From an uncultured Pelagibacteraceae bacterium (GTDB taxonomy: Bacteria > Pseudomonadota > Alphaproteobacteria > Pelagibacterales > Pelagibacteraceae), in the NCBI GenBank assembly GCA_902612345.1, contig CACMDE010000001.1, positions 1-64,000 of the forward strand: a DNA stretch of 64,000 nt. The letters are read 5' to 3'. Numbering within the stretch: the stretch's first letter is position 1; each line of letters begins with the position of its first letter. Under the pieces are notes generated by a model. It was not told where the DNA came from, ran no database searches, and worked only from the letters and a program-made list of their open reading frames with translations. A program made the translations under genes and the position numbers. This document shows, piece after piece, positions 13,640 to 47,261 of the stretch.

Positions 13640-13742
13640 GAATTTCCGCAAATACAGCATTTTGCGGTGTCTTTGGAAACAAAGAGATCGACACCAGTCA
13701 GCGAGGTTTCGCCCACTGGTGCGATAGCTGCTGGGTAAAAAT
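13640..13742 (+). ncRNA. Structured 5' leader of ffh (candidate cis-regulatory RNA)
   Basis: Three consecutive hairpins: ccgcaaa/tttgcgg (13646-13667), ggtgtc..tttgGAAAcaaa..gacacc (13666-13695), caccagt..gcgaGGTTtcgc..actggtg (13692-13721); the 2nd and 3rd share cacc. Confidence 0.65.
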
Positions 13743-37500: not shown

Positions 37501-38901
37501 ATGTCAGAAAAATTTGATGCAGTTGTAATAGGTGGTGGTCCAGGAGGTTATGTTTGTGCAATTAGACTGTCTCAACTTGGAAAAAAAACAGCTTGCATAG
37601 AGTCCAGGGGATCATTAGGTGGCACGTGTTTAAATGTAGGATGCATTCCATCAAAAAGTTTATTAAATTTATCTGAAAATTATCATAAAGCTAAAAATTT
37701 CGAAAAAATTGGAATAGAAGTAGGTTCTTTAAAGCTTAATCTTCCTAAAATGATGAAAAACAAAGAAAAAGCAGTAACAGTTTTAACCAAAGGCATCGAG
37801 TTTTTATTTAAAAAAAATAAAGTTACCTATTTCAAAGGAACGGGTTCGATTATTGGAAATAATCAAGTATCTGTGAAGTCTACTGATAATAAAGAAGAGA
37901 AAATAGAGACAAAAAATATTATTATAGCAACAGGTTCTGATCCAATTTCACTGCCTGGTATTAAGTTTGATGAAGAAAAAATAGTTTCATCTACGGGGGC
38001 ACTTTCTTTAAAAGAAGTTCCTAAAAAATTGGTTGTAGTTGGCGGTGGATATATTGGTCTTGAAATGGGATCTGTTTGGTCAAGACTTGGATCTGAAGTT
38101 CAAGTTGTAGAATTTCTTGATCACATAACACCTGGCATGGATAAAGAAATATCTAATGAATTTCAAAAATTATTAAAAAAACAAGGAATTAAGTTTAATT
38201 TAAAAACAAAAGTAGAAACAATTTCCTTAAATAATAATGAAGTTGATATAAATACTACTGATGAACAAGGCAACAAAAAACAATTTAATTGTGATGTAGC
38301 TTTAATTTCTGTTGGCAGAAAACCAAATACGAATAATTTAAACTTAGACAAAATTGGAGTTGAAAAAGATAAAAAAGGAAGAATTAAAATAAATAATAAA
38401 TTTCAAACAAATATAAAAAATATATTTGCGATTGGCGATGTTATTGAGGGCCCAATGTTAGCTCATAAAGCTGAAGAAGAAGGTATAGCAGTTGCAGAAA
38501 TTATTGCAGGACAATCAGGTCATGTAAATTATGATATAATTCCTGGAGTAATTTATACTTCACCAGAGGTAGCATCTATTGGCAAAACTGAAGAACAGCT
38601 TAAAGAAAAAAAAGTAGATTACAAAGTTGGAAAATTTCCTTTCATGGCAAACTCAAGAGCCAAAGCGATTGATGAACCAGAAGGTTTTGTAAAAATTTTA
38701 GCCGACTCTAAAACAGATAGAGTTTTAGGTGTACACATGATTGGTCCTCATGCTGGTGAATTAATTGCTGAAATGGCAGTTGCTATGGAATTTGGGGCAA
38801 GCTCAGAAGATATTGCAAGAACTTGCCATGCACACCCTACTTTCTCGGAAGCTGTAAAAGAAGCAGCATTATCAGTTGATAAACGACAGATCCATTCCTA
38901 G
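37501..38901 (+). CDS. lpdA: Dihydrolipoamide dehydrogenase
   Basis: VIGGGPGGYVCAIRLSQLG, GGTCLNVGCIPSKSLLN, C-terminal HAHPTFSEA. Confidence 0.96.
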   Translation: MSEKFDAVVIGGGPGGYVCAIRLSQLGKKTACIESRGSLGGTCLNVGCIPSKSLLNLSENYHKAKNFEKIGIEVGSLKLNLPKMMKNKEKAVTVLTKGIEFLFKKNKVTYFKGTGSIIGNNQVSVKSTDNKEEKIETKNIIIATGSDPISLPGIKFDEEKIVSSTGALSLKEVPKKLVVVGGGYIGLEMGSVWSRLGSEVQVVEFLDHITPGMDKEISNEFQKLLKKQGIKFNLKTKVETISLNNNEVDINTTDEQGNKKQFNCDVALISVGRKPNTNNLNLDKIGVEKDKKGRIKINNKFQTNIKNIFAIGDVIEGPMLAHKAEEEGIAVAEIIAGQSGHVNYDIIPGVIYTSPEVASIGKTEEQLKEKKVDYKVGKFPFMANSRAKAIDEPEGFVKILADSKTDRVLGVHMIGPHAGELIAEMAVAMEFGASSEDIARTCHAHPTFSEAVKEAALSVDKRQIHS

Positions 38902-38953: not shown

Positions 38954-39274
38954 ATGGCTAGAATTAAAAAATCAAAAGATAATTTCTTTGTAAGATTTTG
39001 GAATGGACAACTTTCTCTTCCAATGTCTTATTGGGGTGTTGGAGTAGGTATAGGTACGATTTATACAGTTCTAGTATTAATTATCATACTAGCTCTTGGG
39101 ATGAGTGAGGATGCTATGTGGGGTTTTGTAATTCCATTTCAAATTTATACTGTTGTTGGAATTTGGAGATCATCTGACAAATATAAAGGACCTAAATTTT
39201 GGGCAATACTTGCAAAAATAGCTGTAGTACTTGGAATAATTTCTAATTTTGCATCAATGTTAACAGGTTATTAA
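38954..39274 (+). CDS. Conserved-looking small membrane protein of unknown function
   Basis: Several TM helices; no recognised family. Confidence 0.65.
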   Translation: MARIKKSKDNFFVRFWNGQLSLPMSYWGVGVGIGTIYTVLVLIIILALGMSEDAMWGFVIPFQIYTVVGIWRSSDKYKGPKFWAILAKIAVVLGIISNFASMLTGY

Positions 39275-39590: not shown

Positions 39591-39619
39591 AATTCTCCAA
39601 AAATATATTATTTTTTTTG

Positions 39620-39645
39620 TTAGCCCCTCAATGGTGAGGGGCTAA
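39620..39645. repeat. Perfect 11-bp inverted repeat (bidirectional hairpin)
   Basis: TTAGCCCCTCA-atgg-TGAGGGGCTAA in a spacer between two minus-strand genes. Confidence 0.8.
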
Positions 39646-39651
39646 TTTATT

Positions 39652-39945
39652 TTAGTCAAAATAGCCAAGTCTTATTCCACTATCACTAAAGATATTGCCA
39701 TTACTTGTGTACCCTAAGCTATTTCCATAGTTGTCGTAGATACCATTATTTCTATTGAAATTAAGACTACTATTATCCCAATTTAAAGGACTATTATCCC
39801 AGTTTAGAGAACTATTATCCCAGTTTAGAGAACTATTATCCCAGTTTAATGGACTACAATCCCAACCTAAACAACTAGCTGATGCATATGATATTGCTGT
39901 TAAATTTAATAAAACAGCAATAAATGCAATTTTTAATTTATTCAT
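39652..39945 (-). CDS. Small secreted repeat protein with LNWDNSS heptads
   Basis: Signal peptide MNKLKIAFIAVLLNLTAISYASA then GWDCSPLNWDNSSLNWDNSSLNWDNSPLNWDNSSLNF. Confidence 0.65.
   Translation of the reverse strand: MNKLKIAFIAVLLNLTAISYASASCLGWDCSPLNWDNSSLNWDNSSLNWDNSPLNWDNSSLNFNRNNGIYDNYGNSLGYTSNGNIFSDSGIRLGYFD
39769..39873. repeat. 21-bp tandem repeat, about 5 units
   Basis: Units of actattatcccagtttagaga at 39769, 39790, 39811, 39832, 39853; the units at 39790 and 39811 are identical. Confidence 0.9.
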
Positions 39946-40081: not shown

Positions 40082-40543
40082 ATGGCAAAGCTAAGAGAAA
40101 TTTCATCTATAGAACACGGCTTAACAGAAGCCATAAAAAATCTTAAATCAAAAGTAATTGAAGAAGTAACAGGAAAAAGTGAGTCTTATTTAAGAAAATG
40201 TAGTGATCCTGATTTAGATCAACAACTAGACCACAAAGATGCTGTTAAAATTGATAAAGCGTGTGTCCAAAAAGGATTAACACCATACCTTTTAAGAGCA
40301 CATGAATATATTATTCAAAAAGAGCTTAAAAACGTTGTAACTGACCGAAAAGACTTAAATGAGCTTTTGACAAAATTTACTATTTTACATGGTCAATTAC
40401 TATCAGTTATTAATTCTGCAAAAAGTATCAGTGGTCATAAAGGAGAACAAATTTCATCAGTTGAAAAAAAGGACATTTTTGAAGCTTTTGAAGCGCTAGA
40501 AAATAAAATCCACAAAATTAAAACAACAATTGAAAGCAGCTAA
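40082..40543 (+). CDS. Phage CII-like DNA-binding regulator (predicted)
   Basis: VIEEVTGKSESYLRKCSDPDLDQQLDHKDAVKIDKACVQKGLTPYLLRAH resembles the alphaproteobacterial CII/CP76-type HTH family. Confidence 0.55.
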   Translation: MAKLREISSIEHGLTEAIKNLKSKVIEEVTGKSESYLRKCSDPDLDQQLDHKDAVKIDKACVQKGLTPYLLRAHEYIIQKELKNVVTDRKDLNELLTKFTILHGQLLSVINSAKSISGHKGEQISSVEKKDIFEAFEALENKIHKIKTTIESS

Positions 40544-41226
40544 TGCAACTTCTTTTAGTAACAATACTTCCGTCAATTTTAATTGTTTTATTCTTTGTAA
40601 AATCAGATAGATTTAAAGAACCAACTAAACAGATAGTAAAAGTTTTTTTTCTAGGAATTCTAATTACTATTCCAGCTTATTTTTTAAACACGTATCTAAG
40701 TGAAATTTGGTATGCTACAAATGCCAGCGAAGGACTTATTTCATCATTTCTTACAGCAGCACCAGTAGAAGAAGGTTTAAAATTATCAGTTTTGTATTTC
40801 TTTGTTTATAAAATGAAAGATTTCAATGAGCCTATAGATGGTATTGTTTATGGGGTAACCGTATCACTTGGTTTTGCAACTTTGGAAAATATTTATTATG
40901 TATATCTTCTTGCGGATTATTTTGAAACAACCTCTATGACATTAGCAATATTAAGATCATTTTCTGCAATTCCGGCCCATGCTGTCTTTGGTATATTTAT
41001 GGGTTATTTTTTCATGAAATATGTATTTATAAAAAAAGGTGACAACTTAATTTTTGCATTTCTAGTACCATTTGTTTTACATGGTTGTTATAATTTATTT
41101 ACGTCCTCTAATTTCTTATTTTCACTAATATTGATATTAATTGCATGGATTTTAGCTATACGAATGTTTTCAAGACTTAAAAAAACTCAAAAGACAAAAC
41201 GAAGAGAATATGAAAAAAAGTTATAA
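40543..41226 (+). CDS. PrsW-like intramembrane metalloprotease (CPBP/Abi-related)
   Basis: Multi-TM protein with PVEEGLK (EExxK), TLENIYY, FSAIPAHAVFG and a distal VLHGCYN. Confidence 0.75.
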   Translation: MQLLLVTILPSILIVLFFVKSDRFKEPTKQIVKVFFLGILITIPAYFLNTYLSEIWYATNASEGLISSFLTAAPVEEGLKLSVLYFFVYKMKDFNEPIDGIVYGVTVSLGFATLENIYYVYLLADYFETTSMTLAILRSFSAIPAHAVFGIFMGYFFMKYVFIKKGDNLIFAFLVPFVLHGCYNLFTSSNFLFSLILILIAWILAIRMFSRLKKTQKTKRREYEKKL

Positions 41227-41821
41227 ACTAATAATCTTAATAATAATAAGTTTATTTTTAACTAATTACTCTATTGCCAAGGAGATTAGAACTCGTTTTG
41301 GTTTCTTTATTAATCTACCAAACGAATTTATTGCAATTCAAGATCAAAACCTAGGTGAACTCATGCAAGAATATGAAGGATCAGATATGGATAAAGAATT
41401 TTTCAATGAATTTATGGCAGGGTCTTCAAAAAGTGAAATGAATATTGAATATTATTTCCCTCAAAAAATTGATCCTGAAAGAAACTCAATAAATATAAAT
41501 TATCAAAGAGATACAAGTTTAGATGAAATTATCAAACAAGTTGATTTAGCAACGGAAGTATGTCCTTATTATCTACAAGTTTATAAAGATTTATTTAAAA
41601 AAAATATTAAACAATATTATTGTAAATTTAATAACAATTTAAAATTTAAATATAAGAATATAATTCAAATTAAGCACGATGGACCTTTTAAAGATACGTA
41701 TATGATACAATACCAATTTGATGTTAATAGAAAGATGGTAACATTAACGGTTGGGTGCCAAATTAAACACTGCAAATATATGGAAAATGTTGGAACAAAT
41801 ATAATAAAATCTATAAATTAG
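41210..41821 (+). CDS. Hypothetical secreted protein in channel operon
   Basis: Signal peptide MKKSYKLIILIIISLFLTNYSIA; overlaps PrsW gene by 17 bp and abuts the first channel gene. Confidence 0.65.
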   Translation: MKKSYKLIILIIISLFLTNYSIAKEIRTRFGFFINLPNEFIAIQDQNLGELMQEYEGSDMDKEFFNEFMAGSSKSEMNIEYYFPQKIDPERNSININYQRDTSLDEIIKQVDLATEVCPYYLQVYKDLFKKNIKQYYCKFNNNLKFKYKNIIQIKHDGPFKDTYMIQYQFDVNRKMVTLTVGCQIKHCKYMENVGTNIIKSIN

Positions 41822-43387
41822 ATGAGCTTTAATCCAAAAAATTATTTAAAGAAATTATTTTTAGTTTTACTTTTGATTTCATTTCAAAATATTACTTTTT
41901 CTGAGGAAGGTTTTTATCATGAAGATAAATCTATAGCCTGTTCTAATTTTTATAACGCAATTAAAAATAGTGACAATCCCAGAGTTAAAAACTTATTTCC
42001 AAGATTTATATACAAAGATTATGGTTTTTACATTAAATCTACTACTAATTCTAAAGGTGAATGGATCGCTGTCAAAAACGAAAATGGATACTTATTAGTT
42101 GGCGAAGTATATTCCTATAAAACTCTAGGCAAAATAAATCCTGAAGATATTATAGTTAATATAGAGGGTGAAAGAATAACCTCCCTTGATCAATTTAACT
42201 CAATTATTTTTTCAGATAATATAGAAGAAATTACGATCGATTTAATCAAACCTAATGGTGAAAATTATAGCGCTACAATTAATAATCATTGGAATTCATA
42301 TGCACAAATTGAATATAGCTTAGAGGATATTTATGTCTCAAATATAGATATAAAAACTGGAACTGCTACTTTTGCTGTAAGAGAAGCGTTTCAATACAAT
42401 TATGACAAAGAAAATAATGAAGACGATTATTTACATCCAATATTTTTAATAGCAAAAAAATTTCTTGTTGAACCTGTAGAAGAAGGAGAAGAACCTTTTG
42501 TCCATATTTGTAACCCAACATCTGAGCAATTTAAAAATTCTGGTTTATTAAATCCCTTGAACTCTGATACTCGAAAATTAGTAAAATCAGATAAAGATTT
42601 AATTAAAATAAATCATAAAATAACCACCTATGTTGCACCTTTTCAGAATTATAATAATGTGAGAGTAGAAACTGAAAGAACAAGTATTCAAACAGTTAGA
42701 AATCAATTTAATTTAAGATCTTTTCCATTTGATAAGCAAATTATAAAATACCAATTTGCTGATAGTTCTTTTGAAATTGATAAAAGAATTTTATTTTCTC
42801 AATCATTTACAGATCTTACTTTAGATAATTTTATGAAAGTTGATGATATTTCAGGATGGGATAAAAAAAAATATACTATTAAAAGAATCAAACATAGGGA
42901 CACAGTTAATGTAGAAGGTCAATATAGAGATGGAATAAGCATTGAAATAGAGTTAGAGAGGAAACATGGATATTATATTTTTAAAGTAATTTTACCGATT
43001 ATTTTAATTTTATCAGTATGTTGGTCTGTAGTTTGGGTAGATCCAAGAGAGCTAGAGGCAAGATTAACCATAACTATTGTTTGTTTGCTTTCATTAATTG
43101 CATACAATTTTGTGATTGATGCTGAATTGCCAAAACTGGAATATCTCACAGTTTTAGATTGGATAGTTTTAATTTCTTATTTCTATGCAACTGTACCTAA
43201 TTTTTTGAGTATAATTTCATTTAGACTACAAAAAACCGATTTGAAAATGAGTAATCAACTCGAGATAATTAGCAAAAGGTATGGTCTTTCCTCTTATGTT
43301 TTAAGTATTTTTATAATTGTTTGGATAAATGCTTTTTCAAATCCAGACAACTCAAGTAGCCTTATAAATTGGATGGTTCCTTATTGA
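41822..43387 (+). CDS. Pentameric ligand-gated ion channel subunit (Cys-loop receptor family) with N-terminal PDZ-like domain
   Basis: Signal peptide; PDZ-like LGKINPEDIIVNIEGERITSL; Pro-loop motif RSFPFDKQ; 4 TM with LTITIVCLLSLIAYNFVIDAELPKLEYLTVLDW matching bacterial pLGIC M2-M3. Confidence 0.85.
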   Translation: MSFNPKNYLKKLFLVLLLISFQNITFSEEGFYHEDKSIACSNFYNAIKNSDNPRVKNLFPRFIYKDYGFYIKSTTNSKGEWIAVKNENGYLLVGEVYSYKTLGKINPEDIIVNIEGERITSLDQFNSIIFSDNIEEITIDLIKPNGENYSATINNHWNSYAQIEYSLEDIYVSNIDIKTGTATFAVREAFQYNYDKENNEDDYLHPIFLIAKKFLVEPVEEGEEPFVHICNPTSEQFKNSGLLNPLNSDTRKLVKSDKDLIKINHKITTYVAPFQNYNNVRVETERTSIQTVRNQFNLRSFPFDKQIIKYQFADSSFEIDKRILFSQSFTDLTLDNFMKVDDISGWDKKKYTIKRIKHRDTVNVEGQYRDGISIEIELERKHGYYIFKVILPIILILSVCWSVVWVDPRELEARLTITIVCLLSLIAYNFVIDAELPKLEYLTVLDWIVLISYFYATVPNFLSIISFRLQKTDLKMSNQLEIISKRYGLSSYVLSIFIIVWINAFSNPDNSSSLINWMVPY

Positions 43388-43397
43388 TGAAAATATT

Positions 43398-44939
43398 ATG
43401 AGTAAAAAAAAAAATATAATTTATTTATTATTTTTATATTTAATATTTATTCCTTTTAATGCTGAGTCATCAATGTCTCCAAAATGTTTTGAATTATTTG
43501 ACAAAATAAAAAACTCTAAAGACCCCTTAATTTCCAATTATCAAAATTATGAAAACTCTACATATGGTTTTGATTTAGATATGTTTTTAGCCTTTGATGA
43601 TGAAGGCACACGCGAATGGTTGTTTAAAAGAGATGAAAATAATTATCCTTTAGTAGGAAGGTATACTTCTGAAAGTTTGATAAATAAAATAAAATTTGGA
43701 GATAAAATAATTAGTATTAATGGCCAAGAATTAAATTTATTAAATGACGATGAATTATCAGATTTATTTCTTGTTACAGAAAATAACGAAAATATTGTTT
43801 CAAATATTGTATTTGAAAGAAATAAAGAAAAATTCGATTTTGATCTTAAAATAATACTTGAGTATCAACAAGATGATCTAATTCAATTTTATATATCAAA
43901 TATAAGTGAGATCTCACAAATAAAATCTACTTTTAAAGCTGACATTTATTTAGAAACGTCGGTAGATTATGATTATGAAACAGATTCACTTCCACTTGGA
44001 AAATTAATTTTTGATACTTTGGTCTATAAAAACGAAAAAGATGAATGGGACTGGCAACAATGCGATTGGATTCCTGAGGAAAAAATAATTGAATATAATA
44101 TTCCCGATCCTTCGCATGAATTAGCTTTTTTTAATGCTGTTAATATTAATAAAAATACCCAAATCAAAAATATAAGCATATATCCTTGGTCAGAAAAAAT
44201 CGGAGATGATGTAGATTATGATTATTCAACAGTTGATTCTTATACAAGGGGAACATTTGAATTTAAAAATGACTTTGATTTAAAAACATTTCCGTTTGAT
44301 AAACAAAAACTAATTTTTCAAATTGCATACGAAAATGATTTAGATGAGTATTTGATAGATTACGAAAAAGATACAGTTAAAGGTTTAGAATTTGCTGCAC
44401 AAAATATAAATATAAGTGGATGGAATATTGTAAAGCATGATATTAAAAATATTGTTTATAAAGGTCCAACAGGGGATAATTTCAGTGGAATCGAAGTTTC
44501 TTTAGAAATTGAGAGAAAAACTGGATATTATATTTATAAAGTAATTATACCGATATTACTAATATTGCTTGTTTGTTGGTCGGTAGTATGGATTGATGCT
44601 GAAGAATTAGAGTCAAAACTTACAATTACAATTGTATGTTTACTATCACTTATAGCCTATAACTTTGTTATTGATAAAGAGCTTCCAAAATTAGAATATC
44701 TCACAGTCCTTGATTGGATAATATTGGTATCTTATGTTTACGCTACAATACCAAACTTTTTAAGTATAATAACCTTTAAATTATATAAAAAGAAAAATAA
44801 GATAAAGATTAATAAAATAAATTATTTAAGCAAAGTTTTTGGTCCTACATCATATTTAGTAATAATATTTTCAATAATAATCATAAATGTAAATAAATAT
44901 CCTGATACATCAGGTAAATTAATTGCTTGGATGTCATAA
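43398..44939 (+). CDS. Pentameric ligand-gated ion channel subunit with N-terminal PDZ-like domain, paralog of preceding gene
   Basis: PDZ-like INKIKFGDKIISINGQELNLL; KTFPFDKQ; LTITIVCLLSLIAYNFVIDKELPKLEYLTVLDW; 4 TM. Confidence 0.85.
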   Translation: MSKKKNIIYLLFLYLIFIPFNAESSMSPKCFELFDKIKNSKDPLISNYQNYENSTYGFDLDMFLAFDDEGTREWLFKRDENNYPLVGRYTSESLINKIKFGDKIISINGQELNLLNDDELSDLFLVTENNENIVSNIVFERNKEKFDFDLKIILEYQQDDLIQFYISNISEISQIKSTFKADIYLETSVDYDYETDSLPLGKLIFDTLVYKNEKDEWDWQQCDWIPEEKIIEYNIPDPSHELAFFNAVNINKNTQIKNISIYPWSEKIGDDVDYDYSTVDSYTRGTFEFKNDFDLKTFPFDKQKLIFQIAYENDLDEYLIDYEKDTVKGLEFAAQNINISGWNIVKHDIKNIVYKGPTGDNFSGIEVSLEIERKTGYYIYKVIIPILLILLVCWSVVWIDAEELESKLTITIVCLLSLIAYNFVIDKELPKLEYLTVLDWIILVSYVYATIPNFLSIITFKLYKKKNKIKINKINYLSKVFGPTSYLVIIFSIIIINVNKYPDTSGKLIAWMS

Positions 44940-45302: not shown

Positions 45303-47261
45303 ATGAAAATACCTGTTTTATTACCTAATATATTCGATCATCCTTTTACGTATAAGTCAGATAAAAAAGTTGAAGTTGGAAGATACGTTTTAGTTCCATT
45401 TGGTAAGAGCGATGCAGTAGGTGTTGTATGGGACCAATTTGAAAAAGAAAAAAATAACAAAAAGTTTAAAATAAAAAAAATAAAAAATATATTTAATGTC
45501 AATAAACTCAATGAAAATTCTATAAAATTTTTAAACTGGTTTTCAGAATATAATATTGTGCCAAAGGGTATGGCCTTGAAGCTTCATTTATTAAGCAGTG
45601 AAGCAATAGAAGATTTAAAAGAAAAGGAATATCTAAAATTTAATGAAAAACTACAATCTAATAAATATGAATTAAGCAATCAACAACATGAAGCATATAT
45701 GGACTTAATTAAAAAAGATGAAAAATTTAGAACACATGTACTTCAAGGAACAACGGGATCAGGTAAAACAATTGTATACTTTAATGCAATTAAGAAAAAA
45801 ATTGAAGAAGGATATCAGGCATTAATTTTACTACCAGAAATAGGTTTAACAAATGATTTTGAGAAAAAATTTATAGATTTTTTTGGTTTTAGACCTGCTA
45901 TTTGGCACTCATCAGTAACAAAAAAAAATAAAAAAATTATCTGGAGTGGACTAGCCTCTAATAAAATTAAAGTTGTTATTGGTGCTAGATCAGCTTTGTT
46001 TTTACCATTTAAAAATTTAGGTTTAATAACGGTCGATGAAGAGCACGATCAATCGTACAAACAAGATGAAGGAGTTATTTATAATGCTCGTGATATGGCA
46101 ATTTCAAGAGCAAAATTTGAGAATTTACCTATCAATCTGATAAGTGCAGTTCCTTCTGTAGAAACCTACAATAATATTAAACTAAAAAAATACGAATACT
46201 CAAGAATATTGAATAGATATAAAGATGCTAATTTACCAGATCATGAGATCATTGATTTAAAAAAATATAGTTTGGAAAAACAAAAATGGATTTCTCCAAA
46301 GACAATTGAAAAAGTAAAATCCCATCTAGATAAAGGAGATCAGATTTTGTTTTTTTTAAATAGAAGAGGTTTTTCTCCTTTTGTATTATGCAAAAAGTGT
46401 ATCAATGTTTTTTCCTGTCCTAATTGTTCAATAAATCTTGTCTATCACAAAAAAAATAATCAACTTCTCTGTCATTATTGTGGATATAAAACAGGAATGG
46501 ATAGAAATTGTGTTAATGGAAAAAAATGTGATTTAGCTTTTTCTGGCCCAGGTGTTGAAAAAATATCAGAGGAAGTAAAATCTATTTTTTCAGAATATAA
46601 ATCAGTAATTTTTTCTAGTGATACAATGAATAAAAAATCATCAGTAAAAATTTTAGATGATATTATAGAAAATAAAATCAATATTTTAATTGGAACCCAA
46701 ATGGTTTCTAAAGGATTTCATTTTCCTAATTTAAATTGCATTGTTGTTTTAGATATTGATTTAACATCGCAAGGACATGATTTACGTGCAGCTGAAAAAA
46801 ACTTACAATTATATCACCAACTTTCTGGTAGAGCAGGTAGGGCTGGTATGCCTGCTAAAGTTTATTTTCAAACGTATAATATGAACTCAGATGTAATTTC
46901 TCAAATTACTGATGAAGATCCTTTCTTATTTTTAGATAAAGAATTAATCTTAAGAAAAAACTACTCACTGCCACCATTTGAAAGATTTATAGGTATAATA
47001 ATTACATCACCAGACGAGGATAAATTAAAAAAGGAATCATTTATATTACAAGAAAAATTAAACAAAAATTTAAATTGTAAAGTTCTTGGACCTGTAGAGG
47101 CTCCAATATTTAAAATTAAAAAGAATTATAGAAACAGAATTTTAATTAGAGCAAAAAAAGATATGAATATTCAAAAAAAATTATCTGAAATTCTAAAGAT
47201 CCATAAGTCTACAAGTGGAATAAAACTAATAGTTGATGTTGACCCAATTAGCTTCAATTAG
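45303..47261 (+). CDS. priA: Primosomal protein N' (replication restart helicase)
   Basis: LQGTTGSGKTIVYF, DEEHDQSYKQDEG, zinc motifs CKKCINVFSCPNCSINLVYH and LCHYCGYK. Confidence 0.95.
   Translation: MKIPVLLPNIFDHPFTYKSDKKVEVGRYVLVPFGKSDAVGVVWDQFEKEKNNKKFKIKKIKNIFNVNKLNENSIKFLNWFSEYNIVPKGMALKLHLLSSEAIEDLKEKEYLKFNEKLQSNKYELSNQQHEAYMDLIKKDEKFRTHVLQGTTGSGKTIVYFNAIKKKIEEGYQALILLPEIGLTNDFEKKFIDFFGFRPAIWHSSVTKKNKKIIWSGLASNKIKVVIGARSALFLPFKNLGLITVDEEHDQSYKQDEGVIYNARDMAISRAKFENLPINLISAVPSVETYNNIKLKKYEYSRILNRYKDANLPDHEIIDLKKYSLEKQKWISPKTIEKVKSHLDKGDQILFFLNRRGFSPFVLCKKCINVFSCPNCSINLVYHKKNNQLLCHYCGYKTGMDRNCVNGKKCDLAFSGPGVEKISEEVKSIFSEYKSVIFSSDTMNKKSSVKILDDIIENKINILIGTQMVSKGFHFPNLNCIVVLDIDLTSQGHDLRAAEKNLQLYHQLSGRAGRAGMPAKVYFQTYNMNSDVISQITDEDPFLFLDKELILRKNYSLPPFERFIGIIITSPDEDKLKKESFILQEKLNKNLNCKVLGPVEAPIFKIKKNYRNRILIRAKKDMNIQKKLSEILKIHKSTSGIKLIVDVDPISFN

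Follow-up and report, generated by a model that had tools for sequence, protein, structure and literature searches.

The window, as the whole stretch of 64,000 nucleotides analysed here will be called, comes from contig 1 of a genome of 1.07 Mb and 83% completeness, whose nearest named relatives are single-cell genomes of uncultured Pelagibacteraceae (SAR11). It contains a run of five genes on one strand (Table 1): a CP76/CII-like regulator, a PrsW-family protease, an exported protein and, as the last two, a pair of pentameric ligand-gated ion channels (pLGICs). The two adjacent channel genes had been recognized in a preliminary description, and their coordinates and frames are exact. Spacing within the run is tight: the stop of the CP76/CII-like gene overlaps the PrsW start by 1 nt, the PrsW and exported-protein genes overlap by 17 nt, the exported-protein gene abuts the first channel gene and 10 nt separate the two channel ORFs; therefore, the run is likely to be a single transcript.

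The first and third members of the run also have relatives elsewhere. A homologue of the CP76-like protein at locus L012 exceeds the PF06892 cut-off that the window protein narrowly misses; a PDB search with the latter returned nothing useful for its identity. Despite this CII-like neighbour, a phage origin was rejected, as no relatives were found in viral contigs or phage genomes. The exported protein of 203 aa recurs in the same run at L011, L012 and L015, and is also present at L084.

The run lies between lpd, which ends at 38901 and is followed by three small ORFs, and priA, which starts at 45303. In sister species (L125, L128, L131, L132, L133 and L145), lpd and priA are only ~20-30 nt apart, so that, relative to them, the window has extra genes at this site. 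The same five genes, with a second channel 90% identical, lie between the same flanks in an independent single-cell genome (L011); the run is thus no artefact of binning.

Table 1. Features of the five-gene run, and related loci with other channel neighbours
Feature	Position	Strand	Evidence and remarks
CP76/CII-like regulator	40082-40543	+	153 aa; PF06892 E 1.5e-5, slightly below cut-off
PrsW-family glutamic intramembrane protease	40543-41226	+	227 aa; PF13367 E 5e-36
Exported protein, signal-like N-terminus	41210-41821	+	203 aa; without Pfam match
PDZ-pLGIC subunit 1	41822-43387	+	521 aa; NCBIfam LGIC_1 E 3e-28; ELIC (PDB) E 3e-16
Subunit 1, N-terminal helix and PDZ (aa 34-160)	41921-42301	+	aligned member of PDZ profile
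PDZ-pLGIC subunit 2	43398-44939	+	513 aa; NCBIfam LGIC_1 E 8e-31; ELIC (PDB) E 8e-20
Subunit 2, N-terminal helix and PDZ (aa 24-155)	43467-43862	+	model, Foldseek, profile
Subunit 2, ligand-binding domain (aa 156-373), Pro-loop FPFDKQ aa 298-303	43863-44516	+	AlphaFold2 model
Subunit 2, transmembrane part: M1 374-398, M2 404-426, M3 437-464, M4 468-500	44517-44897	+	DSSP on model
Trypsin and CHAT or caspase beside PDZ channel	L027:7281-12885; L034:6623-12250; L039:7629-12483; L151:4803-9500; L157:3439-8040
PDZ-less channel and amine oxidase	L012:6587-9115; also L014, L017, L022, L023, L024, L026, L038, L044, L045, L046, L048

Channel subunits with an N-terminal PDZ domain

Both proteins have the signal-like hydrophobic N-terminus, FPFDKQ Pro-loop motif and pLGIC transmembrane part earlier ascribed to them. 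Their similarity to pLGIC models and to bacterial pLGICs of known structure runs from the Pro-loop into the transmembrane region; both proteins stay under the cut-offs of the Pfam pLGIC models (PF02932 gives E 2.4e-4 over M1-M3 of subunit 2), and the curated NCBIfam cut-off is likewise unreached. An AlphaFold2 model of subunit 2, made with 42 sequences (pLDDT 87.8, pTM 0.79), has four transmembrane helices, and Foldseek matches it to GlyR, GABA-A, DeCLIC and GLIC at E ~5e-20. Sequence and model together identify both ORFs as pLGIC subunits, in which a predicted ligand-binding beta domain is followed by four transmembrane helices; the family is related to the neurotransmitter-receptor channels of animals. 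P299, D301 and R373 (the Pro-loop proline and the basic residue before M1 among them) are invariant in all 42 homologues. The disulfide-forming Cys-loop cysteines of the metazoan class are absent from both proteins, as in other prokaryotic members; subunit 2 has cysteines only at 30, 222, 393 and 414, and those of subunit 1 are at 40, 230, 400 and 421.

In the pore, Glu -2', Thr 2', Val 6', Leu 9' and Ala 13' are invariant in the 42 homologues, and Phe 16' is found in 41. The cation selectivity proposed earlier is consistent with the invariant glutamate; residues such as Glu -2', Leu 9' and Phe 16' fit a pore of predicted cation selectivity. An SWM-like motif is common to the C-terminal ends of many channels of the family, and binding of such an end by the channel's own PDZ would be a candidate form of self-recognition.

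The PDZ module that the preliminary description placed ahead of the receptor domain is borne out by profile, model and fold comparison. Single-sequence Pfam searches give a weak signal, with PDZ at E 0.011 in subunit 2, under the cut-off, and no PDZ match in subunit 1; PF00595 is found at E up to 1 in 19 of 42 homologues (best 2e-6), and PDZ_2 or PDZ_6 in some. A profile built from 35 homologous N-terminal domains and searched against the PDB finds PDZ domains: those of YlbL (4e-7), DegP, HtrA1 and eukaryotic proteins, as well as the tandem of the RseP-family protein Aq_1964 (whole-sequence E 3e-13, ~7e-5 per domain). The N-terminal domain of subunit 2, modelled separately, is predicted to have a PDZ fold (pLDDT 84.9); Foldseek ranks the complex of DegS and YQF peptide first (E 3e-4, probability 1.0), ahead of other HtrA and Ctp proteases. 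The profile and the model of the domain make the call secure: the channel N-terminus is, on both predictions, a PDZ domain of the bacterial protease (HtrA/RseP) type. Its nearest relatives by profile and fold, the PDZs of DegS/HtrA and of the RseP family, are periplasmic, as that of the window would be; they, however, belong to a protease, and that of the window belongs to an ion channel. A motif resembling the carboxylate loop (GF.L) has glycine at position 57 in 41 of 42 sequences, with position 58 mostly hydrophobic. C30, in the helix before the PDZ, and C222, in the ligand-binding domain, are invariant in 42 of 42 homologues and may form a disulfide that links the PDZ arm with the receptor domain.

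Other pLGICs differ at the N-terminus. ELIC and GLIC share the fold, the Pro-loop and the M2 pore pattern, and are the best sequence matches in the PDB; but they have no domain before the ligand-binding domain, and linkage to PrsW is not described in the literature searched. DeCLIC does have an extra periplasmic N-terminal domain, and is described as the only pLGIC in which such a domain is partly characterized (PMC12664993). Its NTD1 and NTD2 lobes are calcium-binding beta domains amounting to about half of the receptor mass, whereas the window channels have a single PDZ of ~100 aa with a leading helix; a DeCLIC-type domain was rejected for them, because the subunit N-terminus is ~130 aa long and matches PDZ, not the two large DeCLIC lobes. 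The fusions of Tasneem et al. (PMC549065) also place a sensor domain N-terminal to the pLGIC, but these are small-molecule sensors, and the text has neither PDZ nor protease. Jaiteh et al. listed Pelagibacter among the carriers of pLGICs, with the termini trimmed in their analysis (PMC4795631). The open literature searched holds no characterized PDZ-pLGIC and, subscription papers and preprints aside, no relevant paper on PrsW with ligand-gated channels or on SAR11 with a ligand-gated ion channel.

A heteropentamer had also been put forward as possible, and identity in the M2-M3 blocks of the two genes counted by hand as 45 of 50. Alignment gives 43 of 50 (71% identity in DNA), and likeness in this region is family-wide: mean identity over all family pairs is 0.81, and 26% of pairs equal or exceed the two window channels. 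The strong divergence claimed for the remainder holds, the N-terminal parts being 27% and the ligand-binding parts 22% identical, near the means over family pairs (23% for the PDZ part and 25% for the ligand-binding part). In the tree, the two channels belong to separate, well-supported subclades: the first groups with L015_4424, L018 and L011_4430, and L011_5971 is the sole companion of the second. At L015, the same first gene is followed by a second one that belongs to another subclade; L018 has the first gene only; most loci have a single PDZ channel, and the pair of the window is not conserved. The L015 and L018 arrangements indicate that the pairing is exchangeable, which speaks against an obligate heteropentamer; a heteropentamer as such is weakly supported at best. 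A recent tandem duplication that yields a heteropentamer was rejected as the main explanation in view of the different subclades, the swapped second gene and the ordinary M2-M3 identity.

Proteases and other neighbours of the channels

The PrsW of the window scores 124.5 bits against PF13367 (cut-off 23.5). With the NCBIfam PrsW model it reaches 140.9 bits (E 4.5e-41), short of the equivalog cut-off of 225; it is accordingly called PrsW-family, with no claim to the function of the named PrsW. E76, E77, K80, E96 and H180 are invariant (49 of 49). Conserved glutamate and histidine residues have catalytic roles in PrsW proteases, and the protein of the window, as judged from its sequence, keeps intact residues of catalytic type. 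In Bacillus, PrsW is the site-1 protease that cuts RsiW. The window protein shares with it the PF13367 family and the conserved Glu-Glu-xx-Lys, Glu and His residues; it differs in being paired with a channel, in a run without an RsiW-like anti-sigma factor.

Channel and protease genes travel together, a context that the preliminary description lacks. Of 397 sampled genomes of the SAR11 order, 43 have pLGIC homologues, 48 have PrsW and 42 have a CP76-like gene. When strong pLGICs are set apart (E below ~1e-40, a line set after the table was seen; 30 genomes), PrsW is present in 24 of the 30 (Fisher P ~7e-20, relatedness ignored) and the CP76-like gene in 20 (P 4e-15, with relatedness again ignored); the 13 genomes with weaker, diverged channels mostly lack PrsW, and the overlap over all 43 is 26. 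Fifty named loci, collected by motifs from the family's conserved M2 region and thus not a sample of all pLGICs, have a same-strand PrsW in 44 cases; it is directly upstream of the channel in 33, and the frames overlap in 30. The CP76-like gene is a conserved neighbour as well. The cassette occupies many chromosomal sites, and its linkage is conserved across many SAR11 species.

The limits of this association can also be traced. A PrsW-pLGIC pair is found in SAR86 and other marine Proteobacteria (L053, L054, L056, L059), where the N-termini are too diverged for the PDZ profile and a similar motif is visible in some. PDZ and PrsW are not strictly coupled: some PDZ channels, such as those of L051, L052 and L060, have neither PrsW nor a trypsin or caspase in view, and PrsW also lies beside PDZ-less channels (L045, L046, L048). 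In a phylum-wide sample, where 29 genomes besides that of the window have a pLGIC, the PDZ profile matches no inspected locus except the window. Many pLGICs from other families of the phylum (L096-L117) are of ~710 aa or more, with an N-terminus that reads as periplasmic-binding-protein-like; these fusions are apparently of the kind already described by Tasneem et al.

Some relatives have other proteases. An exported DegS-like trypsin that itself has no PDZ adjoins the PDZ-pLGIC in ten loci, nine of which also have a CHAT or caspase-domain protein. At L027, L032, L034 and L039, an exported trypsin of DegS/HtrA type comes after the PDZ-pLGIC, with a CHAT-domain protein next or nearby; two of these CHAT proteins carry a PDZ of their own. 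At L151, L152, L154, L155 and L157, a caspase-domain protein and a trypsin lie upstream of the PDZ-pLGIC (PF00656 E ~1e-18 to 1e-23 in the four scanned), with a CP76-like gene in between in four of the five; at L153, the trypsin is at the contig end and no caspase is visible. Few genomes of the order have PF00656 (9 of 367), and PDZ-pLGIC trypsin loci account for three of the nine. The trypsins keep the GNSGGP motif and, if complete, TNxH. Because trypsin, CHAT and caspase-domain proteins alike have signal-like N-termini, they probably act outside the cytoplasm.

A second type of channel, ~400 aa long and without PDZ, is found at loci such as L012, L022 and L048; that of L022 passes the Pfam cut-off for the ligand-binding domain. 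In 12 loci, its neighbour is a flavin amine oxidase (PF01593 E 7e-46) whose N-terminus is of the twin-arginine type, and the nearest solved relatives of this Tat-exported enzyme are LSD2 and polyamine oxidase. The two look like a pair for sensing and degrading amines, an arrangement that does not concern the window.

What the channels may sense

One way to understand this exchangeable cassette is as a periplasmic device that turns a signal into ion flux: cation channels that sense C-termini, coupled to proteolysis in the envelope. We favour this reading tentatively, at somewhat less than an even chance. Its sensing part draws on the PDZ, with peptide-bound DegS as best fold match, on the near-invariant motif glycine and on the cation-type pore; its protease part draws on the co-occurrence and synteny of PrsW, on the invariant PrsW residues and on the trypsin, CHAT and caspase neighbours. 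That PDZ channels share a gene cluster with proteases in dozens of relatives suggests that the channels respond to pieces of protein, not to a small transmitter. The subunits would form pentamers in the inner membrane and expose their PDZ domains to the periplasm; there, by analogy with DegS, the PDZ would capture free C-termini of envelope proteins that are exposed or newly cut, and this would shift the ligand-binding domain and open the cation pore. PrsW might make or remove cut ends, or trim the channel; in some relatives, its place may be taken by an exported trypsin that is partnered by a CHAT or caspase-domain protein. Proteolysis and ion flux would then form one envelope-stress circuit, with cassette expression set by the CII-like protein. 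A narrower form of the idea, in which the PDZ reads new C-termini made by the partner proteases themselves, so that cleavage gates cation flux, is possible but on the unlikely side.

PDZ domains also act as scaffolds, and this counts against the favoured reading, as does the loose coupling of PDZ to PrsW. A second perspective supposes that the PDZ docks channel and proteases, acting as a PDZ in trans, while the ligand-binding domain senses a small molecule; ligand or ion flux would then license the protease to cut a membrane regulator, by analogy with PrsW and RsiW in Bacillus. Trypsins that are DegS-like yet lack a PDZ suit this view, as do the frame overlap of PrsW with the channel gene in 30 of 50 loci and the pairing of PrsW with PDZ-less channels; but the five-gene run has no membrane-anchored regulator or anti-sigma factor, and the CII-like protein is without an evident membrane anchor. 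We consider such an arrangement unlikely. Distinctly unlikely, in our estimate, is an ordinary chemoreceptor gated by a small molecule, in which the PDZ only aids assembly or stability and PrsW serves quality control of the channel. The pLGICs are small-molecule receptors, those of bacteria have been proposed as chemoreceptors (PMC549065), and the amine oxidase accompanies a related channel; that enzyme, however, is missing from the window, as it is from loci that have PDZ channels only. Moreover, the PDZ diverges as fast as the ligand-binding part, which is easier to reconcile with a module facing a ligand than with a structural spacer.

The neighbours and patchy distribution recall modules of cell death or phage defence, in which damage or phage proteins would trigger protease and channel, and cation flux would depolarize the cell. 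Protease-activated bacterial gasdermins offer a functional parallel. Presence in 43 of 397 genomes, at many sites and with empty sites in sister species, would agree with such a role, as would the caspase, CHAT and trypsin neighbours and the restriction-like or NERD helicases near a few loci. Little supports it directly, however: the trypsin, CHAT and caspase-domain proteins probably lie outside the cytoplasm, and a known defence system was rejected for the core genes, as regulator, PrsW, exported protein and channels have no PADLOC match at E 0.1. The absence of relatives from viral contigs and phage genomes speaks neither for nor against this role, which we regard as very unlikely.

SAR11 are the most abundant marine bacteria, with streamlined genomes and few regulators. 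Channels like these are present in about one in ten of the genomes sampled from the order, and their linkage joins proteases of caspase, CHAT and trypsin type to a bacterial ion channel, with parts that are exported, not cytoplasmic. If the narrower reading, in which cleavage by partner proteases gates the channel, is true, these would be, to judge from the literature searched, the first pLGICs that open in response to the C-terminus of a protein or peptide. That a pLGIC bears a PDZ and shares a conserved run with an intramembrane protease points towards a peptide signal, and so bears on what bacterial pLGICs naturally bind and do; direct, testable predictions follow from it.

Small features around the run

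Several small elements lie 5' of the five genes. A membrane protein of 106 aa without Pfam match (38954-39274, +) has relatives in 21 inspected loci (cluster c3), mostly immediately 5' of the CP76-PrsW-channel run, and is perhaps an additional part of the cassette. On the opposite strand (39652-39945, -), a small exported protein has repeated LNWDNS units and a weak terminal beta-flower match (PF21785 E 0.004); its relatives (cluster c32) adjoin other copies of the cassette. Between divergent small genes, a strong terminator-like hairpin of 12 pairs occupies 39619-39646 (+). Farther off, at 13677-13729 (+), the window contains an ffh sRNA (Rfam RF01793, 56.7 bits).
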